Shown one piece after another: positions 5,135 to 36,333 of a stretch of DNA of 64,000 nt. The translations under genes were made by a program, and so were the position numbers. The notes under the pieces were generated by a model, which was not told the DNA's origin, made no database searches, and saw only the letters and a list, made by a program, of their open reading frames with translations. The DNA lies in assembly GCF_032062135.1 (NCBI RefSeq), contig NC_092861.1:55445179-55509178 (forward strand). The letters run 5' to 3'. The stretch is from Pyxicephalus adspersus (taxonomy: Eukaryota; Chordata; Amphibia; Anura; Pyxicephalidae). Every line of letters begins with the position of its first letter. The first letter of the stretch is position 1.

Positions 5135-5345
5135 TAGTTACATAGTAGGTCAGGTTGAAAAAAGACATACGTCCATCAAGTTCAACCACTAGGGAAAAAA
5201 ACATCCCAGATATAAAACCCTATGGACAGTTGGTCCAGAGGAAAGCAAAAAAAATTCTTCAATATCCTTTTTGTGAACTGGTGCCCAAAACTGCACTGCA
5301 TATTCCAGATGTGGTCTGACCAATGCTTTGTACAGGGGCAGGATT

Positions 5346-5495
5346 ATGTCTCGATCTCTGCAGTCTATTCCTCTTATGTCTCGATCTCTGCAGTCTATTC
5401 CTCTTATGTCTCGATCTCTGCAGCCTATTCGTCTTATGTCTCGATCTCTGCAGCCTATTCGTCTTATGTCTCGATCTCTGCAGTCCATTCCTCTT
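5346..5495. repeat. 30-bp tandem repeat, five copies, inside the CR1 reading frame
   Basis: Units start at 5346, 5376, 5406, 5436 and 5466, each beginning ATGTCTCGATCTCTGCAG. Copies 1-2 are identical, copies 3-4 share CCTATTCG, and copy 5 differs again. The 30-bp period equals ten codons, so the minus-strand frame reads a repeated decapeptide of the [10 protein letters not shown] type just upstream of the [10 protein letters not shown] block. A normal CR1 has one such segment (family knowledge). There are no unique spacers, so this is not a CRISPR array. Confidence 0.95.
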
Positions 5496-6051
5496 CTGAT
5501 ACAAGAAAGTATTTTCATATTGCAGCTTGGCATTGCAATGCTAATAAGTCTATGATCTACCAGAACCCCCAGATCATTTTCCAATTCTGCCCCCCCCCCC
5601 CGACTGTATTTCCCCCAAACAGTATGAAGCATGCATGTTGTTAGCCCCCAAGTGCATACTGTTACATTTATTTATAATAAATGTCATTTGTCACTTGGCT
5701 GCCCAATCAAACAGTACATCCAGGTCTGCTTGTAGATTATAGACATCCTGTATGGACTTAATTCCATTACATAGTTTGGTGTCATCTGCAAACACAGAAA
5801 TGGTACTTTTATTCCTAAACTCTATATCATTTATAAAGATGTTAAACAGTAAAGGTCCCAACACTGAACCCTGGGGTACACCACATAATCACTACTCTCT
5901 GGTCCTTAAGCCAGTTCTCTATCCATTTACAGATTGACTTTTCCAAACCTATTGACCATACCTTGCATATTAACTGTCTGTGAGTTACAGTGTCAAATGC
6001 ATTAGCAATGTCCAAGTACACTACATCAACTGCTATTCCACTGTCTACATG

Positions 6052-6722
6052 TGTCACACTTACCTGTTCCTCATTAAAGCACAGGCATATCTCCCCTGCG
6101 CATGCGGGCAGTTCTGATGCTGGGCGTGCCTCTGTTTCCAAGTTCAGCTCTCAGACTTCATTTTGTGTTCCTGCAACAAGTTTTGTCTCCTTTGTGCTGA
6201 GCCATTAGTTCTGTGAACTAGTTCCTGTACACCTGCTGCTTAATCCAGTGTTTCCTGTGTCCAGCTCCTGTGTTAACCCCCTCGTTATCCAGTCTGTTTG
6301 TTCCCAGCCAACTTCCCTGTGCTGTTCCTGTGTTCCTGTCTGCCTGTGAATATCCCTGCTTCTCATGTGCCTCCTGCTGTTTCCAGTATCTCCAGTGTTC
6401 CCTGTGCCTGCAGTGTCATTGCCGTCCGTCTCCTGGATGCCTGGCTATTGACCCCTGGTGTGTGACCGGACCTCTCTTGCTTGCTGCCTTTCTTGACCTC
6501 CGCTTTCCTTGACTATCCTCCTGCCTGGTGATTTGGTACCGTGCTTGCCTACCTTGATGTGCCCAAGAACTGCAACCTGGCCGTAACCAGCAGCGCAACA
6601 TCCTCACCATCAGAAGCTCTGGAGAAAATCTGGTTATGGCCTAGACTCTGCGCCTTGGCCCTTCTCAGGGCTCGCATCACCTCCTTAAGCCCCCTAGTGG
6701 TCCTGTCTCTCCGTGCATGACA
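6052..6722. mobile_element. Solo LTR 1, inserted into the CR1-like element
   Basis: The 671-bp segment begins TGTCACACTT and ends GTGCATGACA, the TG...CA ends of an LTR. The pentamer ACATG flanks it on both sides (6047-6051 and 6723-6727). CR1 coding sequence stops at one border and resumes at the other, which independently fixes both ends. An inverted relative lies at 50531-51259 and a more distant one at 54087-54776; all share the subterminal CCTCACCATCAGA. No gag, pol or second LTR is nearby, so internal sequence was probably lost by LTR-LTR recombination. Ty3/gypsy is my guess for the class. Transcription direction is not resolved. Confidence 0.9.
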
Positions 6723-7715
6723 ACATGTTTATTTACTTCTTAATAAAAAGAGAGTAAATTTGTTTGACAACTTCGGTCTTTCTTGAAGCCATGCTGACTA
6801 TCACGTATAATATTATTTTCTAGCAGAAACTCCTCTATGTGGTTCTTTATCAAACTCGTTAGGACCTTTTTAAACTATGGAGGTTAAACTAACTGTTCTG
6901 TAGTTACCTGGTAATCTCTTGGCTCCCTTGGTTACCTGGCTCCGTTTTGAAGCTAGGAACCAGATTGGTCTTTCACCAATCCATTGGTACCATGCCAGTG
7001 ATTAAAGAGTCTCTAATAATTAGAAATATTGGCTTTGAAATAACTGAGCTAAGCTCTTTGAGGACACGTGGATGTAATCCACCAGGTCCCAGTGGTTTGT
7101 CAACCTTAATTTTTCCCAACTTTTTCTCAGTCATATCAATTTTGAGCCATTGTGAACCGTTTAAGGCAGTGACATTGCCATTATGAATTTGGACTTGAGC
7201 TCTGCAAATTTTCTTTGTGTACACAAAAAAGGTAAAAAAAAGTGTTTAGTAAATCTGCCTTTTCTTTATCTCCAGTTACCAACCCAGAGACATCCTTTAA
7301 GGGGCCTACATGCTCAGATCTGCTCTTTTTGCTAATAATATATTTTAAAAAATATTTGGGGTTTGCCTTCATTTCCTTTGCAATCTGTCTTTCATTTTGA
7401 GGTTTTGAACATTTTATCTCCTTTTTACATCTTTTGTTATATTCTTTATAGTTTTCAAATGATGAAGGTGATTCTACATTTTTATATTTTTGGAATGCCA
7501 TTTTCTTGTTCTTTATGGCTTTTTTAACATCTGCTGTGAACCACATTTTAACCTCCTAAACTTATTACCCATTGGAATATATTTTTCTGTGTGCTTGTAT
7601 AGAACAGACTTGAAATATTTCAATTTCTGTTCTGTGTTCTTTGAGGATAATATTATCTCTCAGTCCAAGTCACAGAGAGCCACCCTTAATAATGCAAAAT
7701 TTCCAATTTTATAAT

Positions 7716-30560: not shown

Positions 30561-32738
30561 GAGACATGCTCACTGTCGCAGTTAAGCAAGTACAGCTCAT
30601 CTGTACTATTCTCTTTCTATATATGCTATATCTCTTTGTACATATGCATCAATAGGGATAGTTGGGGAGGGTTCTGTGAGGAGTCACCAGAAGAGAATTG
30701 TATGTCTGAACATGACTTTTACCACAAAAGAACTGAAGAAATAAAGTTGTACAAAGTATACATTTCATTTACATTTTAATTTAAAAAAGTAAAGTAGTTT
30801 CAAATACATTTGTAGCAAATTATTTTTCATTTAAAAAAATAAATAATATACAGAATGTGTGGCATCTTTCCTAACTATCCATGGATCTGTTCTTCCTCAT
30901 GTGCTGACATTTGAAAGAATTCCTGGGCACCTTCATTATACTGCCTACAAGAAAAGCTTTACCTGGCAAAAGGAATTAGTTGTTGTATCACAAGTATTTT
31001 ACTTGCCCCATAGCAAATTTCTTTCCTGAAAATGCATTGATGAAAAGCCTGTTTGAAGATTAGTCAGAAATTTGTCTGATATCTCTTAATACTCTCCTTT
31101 TCAGTCCTTCAAACCCTGAAGGTAAAATGTTGGATGTGAAATGAAATAATCTGCAACATTTGGATGTCTGACAGTATGTTCAGCATCTTTGTAGAGCCAG
31201 AGGGAGGAAAGTGGGTAGCACAAGCAGAAAAGTTTCACAAAGTACAATGCTATTTATAAAGTATTAATGCAATCCCTGCTGTAGGTTTCCTATTTCCATG
31301 CTAATTATTACGAGTTCAAACCTTTATTTGATATCCTCATTATATTGTTTTAGCCAAAGAAGGCATATGCCTGCTGCTCCATATTTGAATGCATTGTCCT
31401 ATATAAAAAAAAGCTCTAATAAAGAAACTATGTGCAGAGAAATATTCATAGACTGCCATTTCTGACCTCCTTTTTACATATCTTTGCATTTATTAAAGCA
31501 AAACCCTAGCATTTAAATGATTAACCTGTTAAAGATAAAACAAACCCAGCTTTTGCTGAAATATTAAGTTTCAATTCAAAGATTGTCCTCACAATAATTT
31601 TTCGCTGTTGGTAATGCCCTCAGTCCGATGGCTGATATCATTTAAACCCTTTTCTTGAAGCTAAGATCTTCCTGGCCTATGACTATACAGTGGAAGGAGA
31701 ACAGTGATTACCTCTACTTTCTGTCACTCTACTCACATGAGCATGCCCCTTTACACTGCTGCTTCCACTCACATATGACATCTGCTCTACAGGTAACAGG
31801 GTATGTAAGAGGCTGATGTCTGTCCAAATATAGGTAGTGCTAGCTATGTTATTATTACATTTATGTACTTATGATTACCAGAACTGCACTAATCTGTGTA
31901 TTTTCTATCTGCCTAAAGTACTTCCCATAATAGAGGGAATTATTTATTTCAATTTAACTTTTCGGTCCCTCTGTCACGGATATTACAGGCAACCGTTCCA
32001 GCACACATTGCACAAGTTTGATTCACTTTGATTAACGATAGAAATTAGAAATGGGGTGCAGCCATTACTAAGGCAAATGCATGTACACAAGAAATGAATA
32101 CAAGAGGTTGGAGTAATGCCCTTTTACCCCCTCATCCCTCTTTACCCTACACTAACCCATCATCGCTCTTATAGATATAAACTTACAGTGAATTGAAGGT
32201 TTGTGTTTTTGTGGATTACTGTGTAATACTGACAAATGCTCATTATCTTCCCTGCCAGTGCCTGTGCATTACAGCCTCATAAATTTCTCAGAGGTTGTAT
32301 TGTAAGTTTAAATTATGAAGACAGAAGAAGAGGTCTGTAGGGCTGCAATGTGCTGGTGTAGGCAGAGAAATGGACTAGCGACTGTCAGATGTAAACAAAA
32401 CCTCCATTTGGTTCTTGGCAACTATGAATCTGTGGGGGGGAATTTAGGGTTGGTTAGGATAAGAGGAGACAAAGGGTAATTGCACTTTATTCTAATGTAT
32501 AATTACTCTGGTCAACAAACATTTTCTTGCCAAACAGAATAAAATCATTTTAGGTTATGTTTGATGCAGAGATTCCAAATATGGTATTGGTTTTGCTTGA
32601 TTGGCTCTAGTTTTTGAAATAATGATCTCAATATTTACCTCATAGATCTGAATATATTCTATATTCAGTATATTTACAATCTAATCACAAGCTAATACAA
32701 GCTAATCACACAGAAGTAATAGAAAAATTCTGTTTGTA

Positions 32739-34287
32739 TTATCTCCTTTTATGCTGATGATCAGGACAATCACATTGAAGGCCCCAGTAAACTGCCATCA
32801 TGTGTCTATCCCATCTGCCCTGATACCTTTCTTCCATCACCTTTATATCTTGATGGAACCTCTCCCCTTGTTCCTCACTGAAATCGCCAAGGTTTTCTGG
32901 AAATTTTTGCAAATGGCTATAGAGATAGTGTACCTTTATGCTCATAGTAGCACACAAATTTCTAAAGTTTAGGAGCAAGTTTTGTACCAGTTTTTCAAAA
33001 TTTTGTGCTTTATGGTTACCCAAGACATTCCTGGCAACCATGACATAGCTGTGCCAGGCAGAAGCTTCTGTATCGGTCATGTAACTTGTGAAATGTGAAT
33101 CATTCATCAGTTTCTGAATCTGGGGGTCCATCAAAGATTCCTGCTTTTAATTTGTCAGTACTCAATCCAGGAAAGAATCTACAAATGTATTTGAAGCAAT
33201 CACCATCCTTGTTCAGAGCTCCAACAAATTGCTTCATTAATCCCAACTTTATGTGTAGTGGAGGAAGAATTATTTTTTATTTGTCAACCATTGGCTCGGT
33301 AATAATGTTCGCTGCCCCTTTTTTCATGTTTTCCCCTGGAGGCCATGTCACTTTTTTCCAGTGATCCTGCTTTGCTTTACTATCCCACAAGCAGATGAAA
33401 CATGTGTACTTTGTGTATCCACTTTGCTGTCCAAGTAGGAAGTTCATCATTGTTAAATCCACACATATGGACTATTGATGTTCATGATAGCAAAGGTTTT
33501 GTAAGACCATTTTGATATTTTCATATTCTTCTCTTTTGTTGAGTGACCAATTGGAATTGATGCATAGCAGTTGCCATTATGCAGTAAAACAGATTTCAAA
33601 CTTCGAGTGGAACTGTCTATGAAAAGCCACCAGTCTTCTGCTCAGTATTCTGGTACTCCCGTATAGGCTATTAGTCCAGGGACGTTACAACAGTACACAA
33701 AGTCTCCATCTTCACTAAAATATGGTAATAGTGTCACCTCTCTTGTCCTATAAACCGTTACGTTACCTTCCCGGTCTCAGTTTTTTTCTTTTAGTCTGGA
33801 TACTAAAAGTTCAGATGCTTTTTTGACAGACTTCGGTCACGTATTGATAAAACACTTCCTTCATATTCACTTCCACTGCTAACTCCTGGATTACACTCCA
33901 AACCCTGTATATCCTCTATGTTGGATACAGGAATATCAGAGAGTGTACTGAACACTGATATGGGAACTTCAGCACCATGTGGCATAGGTCGTCCTGCTGA
34001 TTCCAAATGTGATTCCAAATCACTTGTTTTTCCTGAAACAATCATCATGATGATTTTTGGGCTCTCGCCATACCATAGGTACACCAACGTTTAAACTTTT
34101 CAGTTTTCTGTTTTTCCACTGACGTAGACACTCTACACAATTTTTGCATACCATATGGGGAGCCCAATACTTATCTTTGTTCCCCAGTTTAATACCAAAA
34201 TATGCAATATATACTTGTTTCACAAATTCAGTAATGTTTCTTGGTCTCTGTTTTTGGTCATTTAAACAACTTGAAGAACTCCTATTT
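32739..34287 (-). pseudogene. Broken copy of a multi-copy metazoan protein family of unknown function
   Basis: Read on the minus strand, conserved blocks follow in order: FGIKLGNKDKYWAPH with a CKNCVECLRQW pair and VPMVWREPKNHHDDC (34020-34287), RPMPHGAEVPIS (near 33970), WWLFIDSSTRSLKSVLLHNG (near 33600), GYTKYTCFICLWDSKAK (near 33400), ILPPLHIKLGLMKQFV (near 33250), and GNHKAQNFEKLV...FPENLGDFSEEQGERFHQD (32739-33134). I recall near-identical block order in hypothetical proteins repeated through insect, spider, cnidarian and fish genomes; no function is known to me. Cys and His patterns suggest metal binding. Damage includes a stop at 33277-33279, stops in 33463-33802, a frameshift near 33520, and an extra base in the C run at about 33123-33127. 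At 34288-34300 the minus strand has TTCTTTTTTACAG, a good splice acceptor, so a first exon may lie upstream. Confidence 0.82.
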
Positions 34288-34940
34288 CTGTAAAAAAGAA
34301 CATGTATGAACAAAAAGAAGGCAAATGAAAGTTGGATGAAAATAATGCTACATTTAATATACAATGCAAAACATTGGCGTGAATAAGATTGATAATTATA
34401 TGCTGTGTTAACATTTGTTGTTGGTAAAAGCATATATTCTAATTCCTGTATCACAAGAACTAGAGCCAATTCCATGAAACTTATATCACTTCTGGATTCA
34501 GCAGAACTGAAATACACTAAATATATTGAAAAAAAATTTGTAAATCTGAACAGGTTTGTTATTTTTGTTTTACCTGTACAGGTAATAAAATTTAAACACA
34601 ACATATCTGCAAATTTAAATGAATGTTTTATTGAGTTGCTACGTTTACCAAACTGGAAAAAAAATATAAAATATAGCAACTGCAAATGTTTTTTAGCAAT
34701 ACAAATTTTAAGGTTTCAGAACCTTCCTTTGTTAGACTTTAATCCAAACCAGGTAAAGACATAAATTATCTGACCTTGGGAATCTCTCAAGGTGGTGTGC
34801 ATATACTCAGCAGCCAGTGCATTCACTTAGCAGTTGAGTGAGCATTAAAAGAAGCTAATGGATTTTCATTAACACTGCTTTATAAAAACACTAGTTTTCC
34901 TCTGGCTCTGGGTCTGTGAGTCTCTAACCCAGAACAAGTA
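34288..34940. other. Possible intron or flank of the broken gene
   Basis: Minus-strand frame 34020-34685 stays open through here but loses all family similarity beyond the acceptor-like site, so I read it as intron or flanking sequence. No upstream exon could be identified. Confidence 0.4.
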
Positions 34941-35158: not shown

Positions 35159-35292
35159 GACTCAAAGGCTATTTCATGTGCTGGTGTGGGCAATTCCTTT
35201 GGTATGTCATTATCAATTAAGCAGATAAAAGGCCTGGAGTTGATTTGAGGGGGGGTGCTTCTTGTATGTAGAAGTTGCTGTGAACAGACAAC

Positions 35293-36333
35293 ATGCGGTC
35301 AAAGGAGCTCTCCATGCAGGTGACACAAGCCATCCTTAAGCTGCAAAAACAGAAAAAACCCATCCGAGAAATCGCTACAATATTAGTAGTGGCCAAATCC
35401 ACAGTTTGGTACATCATGGGAAAGAAACAAAGCACTGGTGAACTCAGCAACGCCAAAAGACCTGGACGTCCACGGAGGACAACAGTGGTGGATGATCCCA
35501 GAATCATTTCCATGGTGAAGGGAAACCCCTTCACAACAGCCAACCAAGTGAACAACACTCTCCAGGAGGTAGGCGTATCGATATCCAAGTCTACCATAAA
35601 GAGAAGACTGCATGTCTTGCAAAGTAAATACAGAGGGTGCACTGCAAGGTGCAAGCCACTCATAAGCCTCAATAATAGAAAGGCTAGATTGGACTTTGCT
35701 CAAAAACATCTAAAAAAAGCACAGTTCTGGAAAAACATTCCTTGGAAAGATGAAACCAAGATTAACCTTTACCAGAATGATGGCAAGAAAAAAGTATGGA
35801 GAAGGCGTGGAACAGCTCATGATCCAAAGCATAGCACATCACCTCTAAAACATGGCGGAGGCAGTGTGATGGCTTGGGCGTGCATGGCTGCCAGTGGCAC
35901 TGGGACACTAGTGTTTATTGATGATGTGACACAGGACAGAAGCAGCCGAATGAATTCTGAGGTGTTCAGAGACATACTGTCTGCTCAAATCCAGCTCAAT
36001 GCAGTCACATTGATTGGGAGGCGTTTCACTATACAGATAGACAATGACCCAAAACATATAGCCAAAGCAACCCAGGAGTTTATTAAAGCAAATAAGTGGA
36101 ACATTCTTGAATGGCAAAGTCAGTCACCTGATCTGAACCCAATTGGGCATTCATTTCACTTGTTGAAGACTAAACTTCGGACAGAAAGACCCACAAACAA
36201 ACAGCAACTGATAGCCGCTGCAGTAAAGGCCTGGCAGAGCATTAAAAAAGAGGAAACCCAGCATCTGGTGATGTCCATGAGTTCAAGACTACAGGCTGTC
36301 ATTGCCAGCAAAGGGTTTTCAAACAAGTATTAG
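35293..36333 (+). CDS. Tc1-like transposase, open frame but third catalytic residue replaced
   Basis: The 346-residue frame has the usual Tc1 length and start (MRSKEL). Residues about 8-45 form a first helix-turn-helix, KRPGRPRRT (55-63) is the GRPR-type linker, and about 66-120 a second helix-turn-helix; together they would bind the inverted repeats. The catalytic domain follows: WKDETK gives D153, HGGGSVMAWACM (187-198) is the glycine-rich box, and IDNDPKH gives D250. The DD34E rule puts glutamate at 285, but LNPIGHSF has glycine there (codon GGG at 36145-36147). That change should abolish cut-and-paste activity (family knowledge). There is no intron and no stop. The encoded protein may still bind DNA; whether it is expressed is unknown. 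Confidence 0.95.
   Translation: MRSKELSMQVTQAILKLQKQKKPIREIATILVVAKSTVWYIMGKKQSTGELSNAKRPGRPRRTTVVDDPRIISMVKGNPFTTANQVNNTLQEVGVSISKSTIKRRLHVLQSKYRGCTARCKPLISLNNRKARLDFAQKHLKKAQFWKNIPWKDETKINLYQNDGKKKVWRRRGTAHDPKHSTSPLKHGGGSVMAWACMAASGTGTLVFIDDVTQDRSSRMNSEVFRDILSAQIQLNAVTLIGRRFTIQIDNDPKHIAKATQEFIKANKWNILEWQSQSPDLNPIGHSFHLLKTKLRTERPTNKQQLIAAAVKAWQSIKKEETQHLVMSMSSRLQAVIASKGFSNKY

Follow-up and report, generated by a model that had tools for sequence, protein, structure and literature searches.

EnSpm, Mirage, Chapaev, Transib, RAG1 and their relatives have C(2)C and H(3-4)H motifs in common, with mostly CA..TG ends and target duplications of 2 to 5 bp (PMC12730594). Chapaev3 has been put inside a broad Transib superfamily, with an N-terminal domain named Chapa (PMC4411706). 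Chapaev has been moved into EnSpm by Repbase (PMC4455052), and DUF1280 has been assigned to it (PMC3985635). The Chapaev3 families Merrow, Garfield and Conan are about 2–2.3 kb long and code for a DDE transposase of about 560 amino acids with C(2)C, LH and H(4)H motifs. They have CAC..GTG ends, duplicate TWA between A and T and show a patchy distribution in animals, including vertebrates (Zhang et al. 2014, PMC4079192). We have analyzed a repeat in a 64,000 nt stretch (the window) of Pyxicephalus adspersus, contig NC_092861.1, which by description shares these features of Chapaev3. Very probably, this repeat is what is left of an old Chapaev3 copy, now dead: a DNA transposon of the cut-and-paste type, in the CMC/CMCT group, the wider clan that also includes Transib and, as a distant cousin, RAG1. 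The initial annotation, made from the sequence alone, had guessed a mobile element, as the termini, target duplications and copy number given below confirm. It had also proposed an undescribed system, a claim to be dropped if a described transposon family were found. At the level of the group, Chapaev3 is such a family: This kind of element is already known, an ordinary multi-copy transposon in the frog genome.

The degraded transposase gene lies on the minus strand at 32742..34289 and corresponds to about 560 amino acids. Its blocks appear in the order FGIKLGNKDKYWAPH..VCKNC, DREGNVTVYRTRE, DWWLFIDSS, SICVDL..FLLGQQ, CFICLWDS, PPLHIKLGLMKQF and KVHYLYSH..SEEQGERFHQD. By tblastn, residues 9-559 of an intact relative, P0001, align with the window in five colinear segments, the best with E 1.5e-139. 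The reading frame must therefore change at least four times, and four in-frame stops separate recognisable blocks. At least six ordered blocks broken by stops and frameshifts had been noticed before, and they are indeed there. The coordinates first given, 32739..34287, hold for the coding part but not for the whole repeat, which reaches 32506 and about 34533.

The motifs of the protein can be placed on the minus strand of the window. An N-terminal block, FGIKLGNKDKYWAPHMVCKNC (34137..34199), is probably zinc-binding, its similarity to zf-AD being weak. The first catalytic Asp block is DWWLFIDSS (33609..33635), which corresponds to D261 in the relative P0003. The second, SICVDL (D315), is found together with the C(2)C motif CFICLWDS at 33379..33471, and the LH motif block LPPLHIKLGLMKQF at 33226..33267. 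The H(4)H motif KVHYLYSHL and the third catalytic acid block, SEEQGERFHQD, occupy 32847..32936. We infer that the third acid is E510 of P0003, and not the neighbouring invariant E513. The C(2)C, LH, H(4)H and DDE residues are invariant columns in an alignment of 35 rows, and in the window, too, the blocks can be read.

The predicted fold of the protein is that of an RNase H transposase, with HzTransib and RAG1 as the nearest folds. No transposase fold had seemed obvious in the initial annotation; the structure prediction it had suggested has supplied one. Pfam gives no family above the cut-off, where scores are shown, for five pieces of the window, the 35 relatives, P0003 or P0074. For the rest of the 35 relatives, reported by E-value only, the best match is zf-AD (3.5e-05). 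With NCBIfam, three proteins gave a single match, far under the cut-off. No match was found in a sequence search of the PDB, nor in a viral fold library at E<=0.001, and the transposase proteins have no match to DUF1280.

Other copies in the genome have well-defined ends. They form imperfect inverted repeats, CACAGCTCAACAAA... and, reverse-complemented, CACTGGTCAACAAACATTTTCTTGCC. We have compared 20 copies picked for their long open frames, together with the window: of the 21 right edges displayed, 20 show the right-end motif, and 12 of 15 left edges show the left-end motif. When at most 4 mismatches per 14-base motif are allowed, 16 of these 21 loci are kept and 5 are dropped. Fifteen of them measure 1.95-2.24 kb; the other is the window copy, with a false match on the left. 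Between pairs of 16 copies, identity averages 0.878. A second set of 20 further copies was taken from plus strand rows near the top of the list of matches to a 135 amino acid piece. With at most 3 mismatches, 11 were kept and 9 dropped; six measure 2.13-2.25 kb, and five (2.4-2.8 kb) have insertions or uncertain end calls.

The flanks of these copies show a target duplication of 3 bp. They are identical over this length in 9/16 copies of the first set and 6/11 of the second, while flanks swapped between copies agree with a frequency of 0.263 and 0.273, respectively. In total, exact TWA flanks are found in 15 of the 27 two-ended copies (41 loci examined), eight of them TAA and seven TTA; no copy among the 27 combines a TAA flank with a TTA flank. 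The duplication is preceded by A in 14 of the 15 cases, and followed by T in 14 of 15. Of the 12 copies without agreement, which include the false match in the window, seven have a single mismatch. Identical flanks over 4 or 5 bp are absent from all 27 copies, so that a 4-bp duplication, WATN, is rejected. Termini, which had not been obvious in the initial annotation, became visible when shared ends were searched for. Kolobok and Sola had been early candidates, prior to the structure result; the TTAA duplication of Kolobok does not fit.

The copy in the window is recognisable at 32506..34533 (minus strand), with 78-89% nucleotide identity to 15 other genomic copies. Its 3' (right) terminal inverted repeat, at 32506..32550, reads CTCTGGTCAACAAACATTTTCTTGCC on the plus strand, where other copies mostly have CACTGGTCAAC... 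At its outer end, CTCTGG stands in place of CACTGG, with one change from CAC to CTC. Next to it, TTA at 32503..32505 makes one side of a TWA duplication, with A at 32502 as in most copies. The 5' (left) repeat is expected at 34534..34575, where the first 37-40 bp or so of the element are unrecognisable. In fact, with the initial 45 nt from each of four other copies scored against this side, 5 to 28 of 200 shuffles did as well, and a TTA at 34559-34561 may be due to chance. The element is damaged and lacks one recognisable terminal repeat.

We have assigned the family to Chapaev3 because its fold, its termini and its target duplication match the described group (PMC4079192): a 3-bp TWA duplication between A and T, CAC/GTG terminal inverted repeats in the sister copies and a DDE transposase with C(2)C, LH and H(4)H motifs. 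A difference from the named families is that the frog copies seen are interrupted. It is very unlikely that we are dealing with a separate, unnamed lineage of the CMCT clade, which would share only the C(2)C/H(4)H motifs and the TWA target with Chapaev3. In its favor, the likeness to Chapaev3 comes from descriptions and not from the protein sequences of named families, and neither Pfam nor NCBIfam gave a family above the cut-off where scores are shown. EnSpm/CACTA, Mirage, Plavaka, ESTA and Lanisha, all in this clade, also have C(2)C and H(3-4)H between the second D and the last E, and mostly CA..TG termini. By description, ESTA makes TA duplications, unlike the frog element, but EnSpm families make 3-bp duplications as it does, so length alone is not decisive (PMC12730594). 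Nevertheless, the size of element and protein, the LH motif, the CAC..GTG ends and the TWA target between A and T jointly fit Chapaev3 as described in PMC4079192.

A Transib or RAG-like transposon is extremely improbable, even if there are resemblances: The RNase H fold with a helical insertion, the C(2)C and H(4)H motifs and the CAC-type ends are shared with the Transib/RAG1 core (6pqx, 5zdz), whose members are the nearest folds. The CAC[A/T]G ends also look like the heptamer of recombination signal sequences. As a difference, the first and second Asp are 54 residues apart in our transposase, a distance about twice as long in RAG1. Transibs typically have 5-bp duplications (PMC4411706), and none of the 27 copies has identical flanks of this length. 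A profile comparison of RAG1 with the transposase proteins gave no significant match. In a comparison aimed at the N-terminal Chapa zinc domain of Chapaev and RAG1, one hhalign run aligned WAPHxVCKTC..W..H..DCYFC with the HPTxFCHNC..EW..H..C..C block of RAG1 at a probability of 0.5; another used a different register, with 7.7 (10 shuffles gave at most 1.16). Gene annotations for some relatives (LOC133365351 in Rhineura) would speak for a domesticated host gene, or a pseudogene of one, but the high number of matching places, the presence of both ends in 27 of 41 loci and the TWA flanks in 15 make this extremely improbable.

In an intact copy, a single gene would code for a transposase of about 560 amino acids that combines a zinc module at the N terminus with an RNase H core of the DDE type. 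The zinc module would bind DNA. On the model of RAG1/Transib and other transposases of the CMC group, the enzyme would bind the inverted CAC..GTG ends, excise the element by a presumably similar cutting chemistry and join it to a TWA target between A and T, with duplication of TWA.

In a search with the read-through protein of the window, 1858 of 6111 candidate proteins reached E<=1e-3; the best shows 62% identity over 97% of the query. The similarity in the blocks is far above chance. Among the 120 matches listed, hosts include Rhineura floridana, Hydra vulgaris, Onthophagus taurus, Callosobruchus analis and Ranitomeya imitator. One listed relative, P0098, is labelled as coming from a Pseudomonadota metagenome assembly, a putative contamination. 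The initial annotation had linked the blocks to a repeated family of hypothetical proteins in arthropods and cnidarians, as the matches to "uncharacterized proteins" of Onthophagus, Callosobruchus and Hydra confirm, and had correctly placed the copy in a vertebrate genome. The RAG1 of the 1.44-Gb assembly which contains the window shares 91% identity with its Mantella aurantiaca counterpart and 80-86% with those of the other named frogs listed, so the host is a frog.

The 135 amino acid piece matches at least 150 places in this genome (every one scored among 8972 candidates at first look), enough copies for studying ends and target choice. In two loci, L012 (5850-6886) and L024 (252-1847), a second, more diverged transposase copy is found a few kb from the first. 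The C-terminal identity of these second copies to P0001 is 60% and 56%, respectively, compared with 73% and 72% for the first ones, which suggests more than one subfamily in the frog. A literature search for GERFHQD, or for GERFHQ plus other words, gave no match. Scans with two short peptide patterns each found no confirmed relative in viral contigs (21 pattern matches) or genome contigs (41).

The transposases of Rhineura and Hydra are 77% identical, while frog RAG1 is 58-64% identical to that of ray-finned fish (rows with at least 95% coverage). Since the transposases are closer than RAG1 is, this Chapaev3 family may well have moved horizontally among animals as distant as frogs, a worm lizard, Hydra and beetles, and then have expanded to at least 150 copies in this frog, to judge from the comparison of protein sequences. 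Horizontal transfer has already been published for other Chapaev3 families (PMC4079192). The host range of this transposon group, to which the ancestor of the V(D)J recombinase is related, now includes a frog. "Uncharacterized proteins" with YWAPH or GERFHQD blocks represent a known kind of transposase, and their gene models are better handled as repeats.

Other repeats are found nearby. A 349 amino acid open reading frame (35284-36333, plus strand), which lies about 750 bp beyond the point where the Chapaev3 copy ceases to be recognisable, codes for a Tc1-like transposase (HTH_Tnp_Tc3_2, DDE_3). Three open reading frames on the minus strand (7181-7555, 5842-6150 and 5189-5671) are likely remains of a non-LTR retrotransposon; the second has a weak reverse transcriptase match (RVT_1, E 2.6e-05), below the cut-off. 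The third includes an in-frame tandem repeat at about 5335-5485, probably a minisatellite within the retrotransposon remnant.
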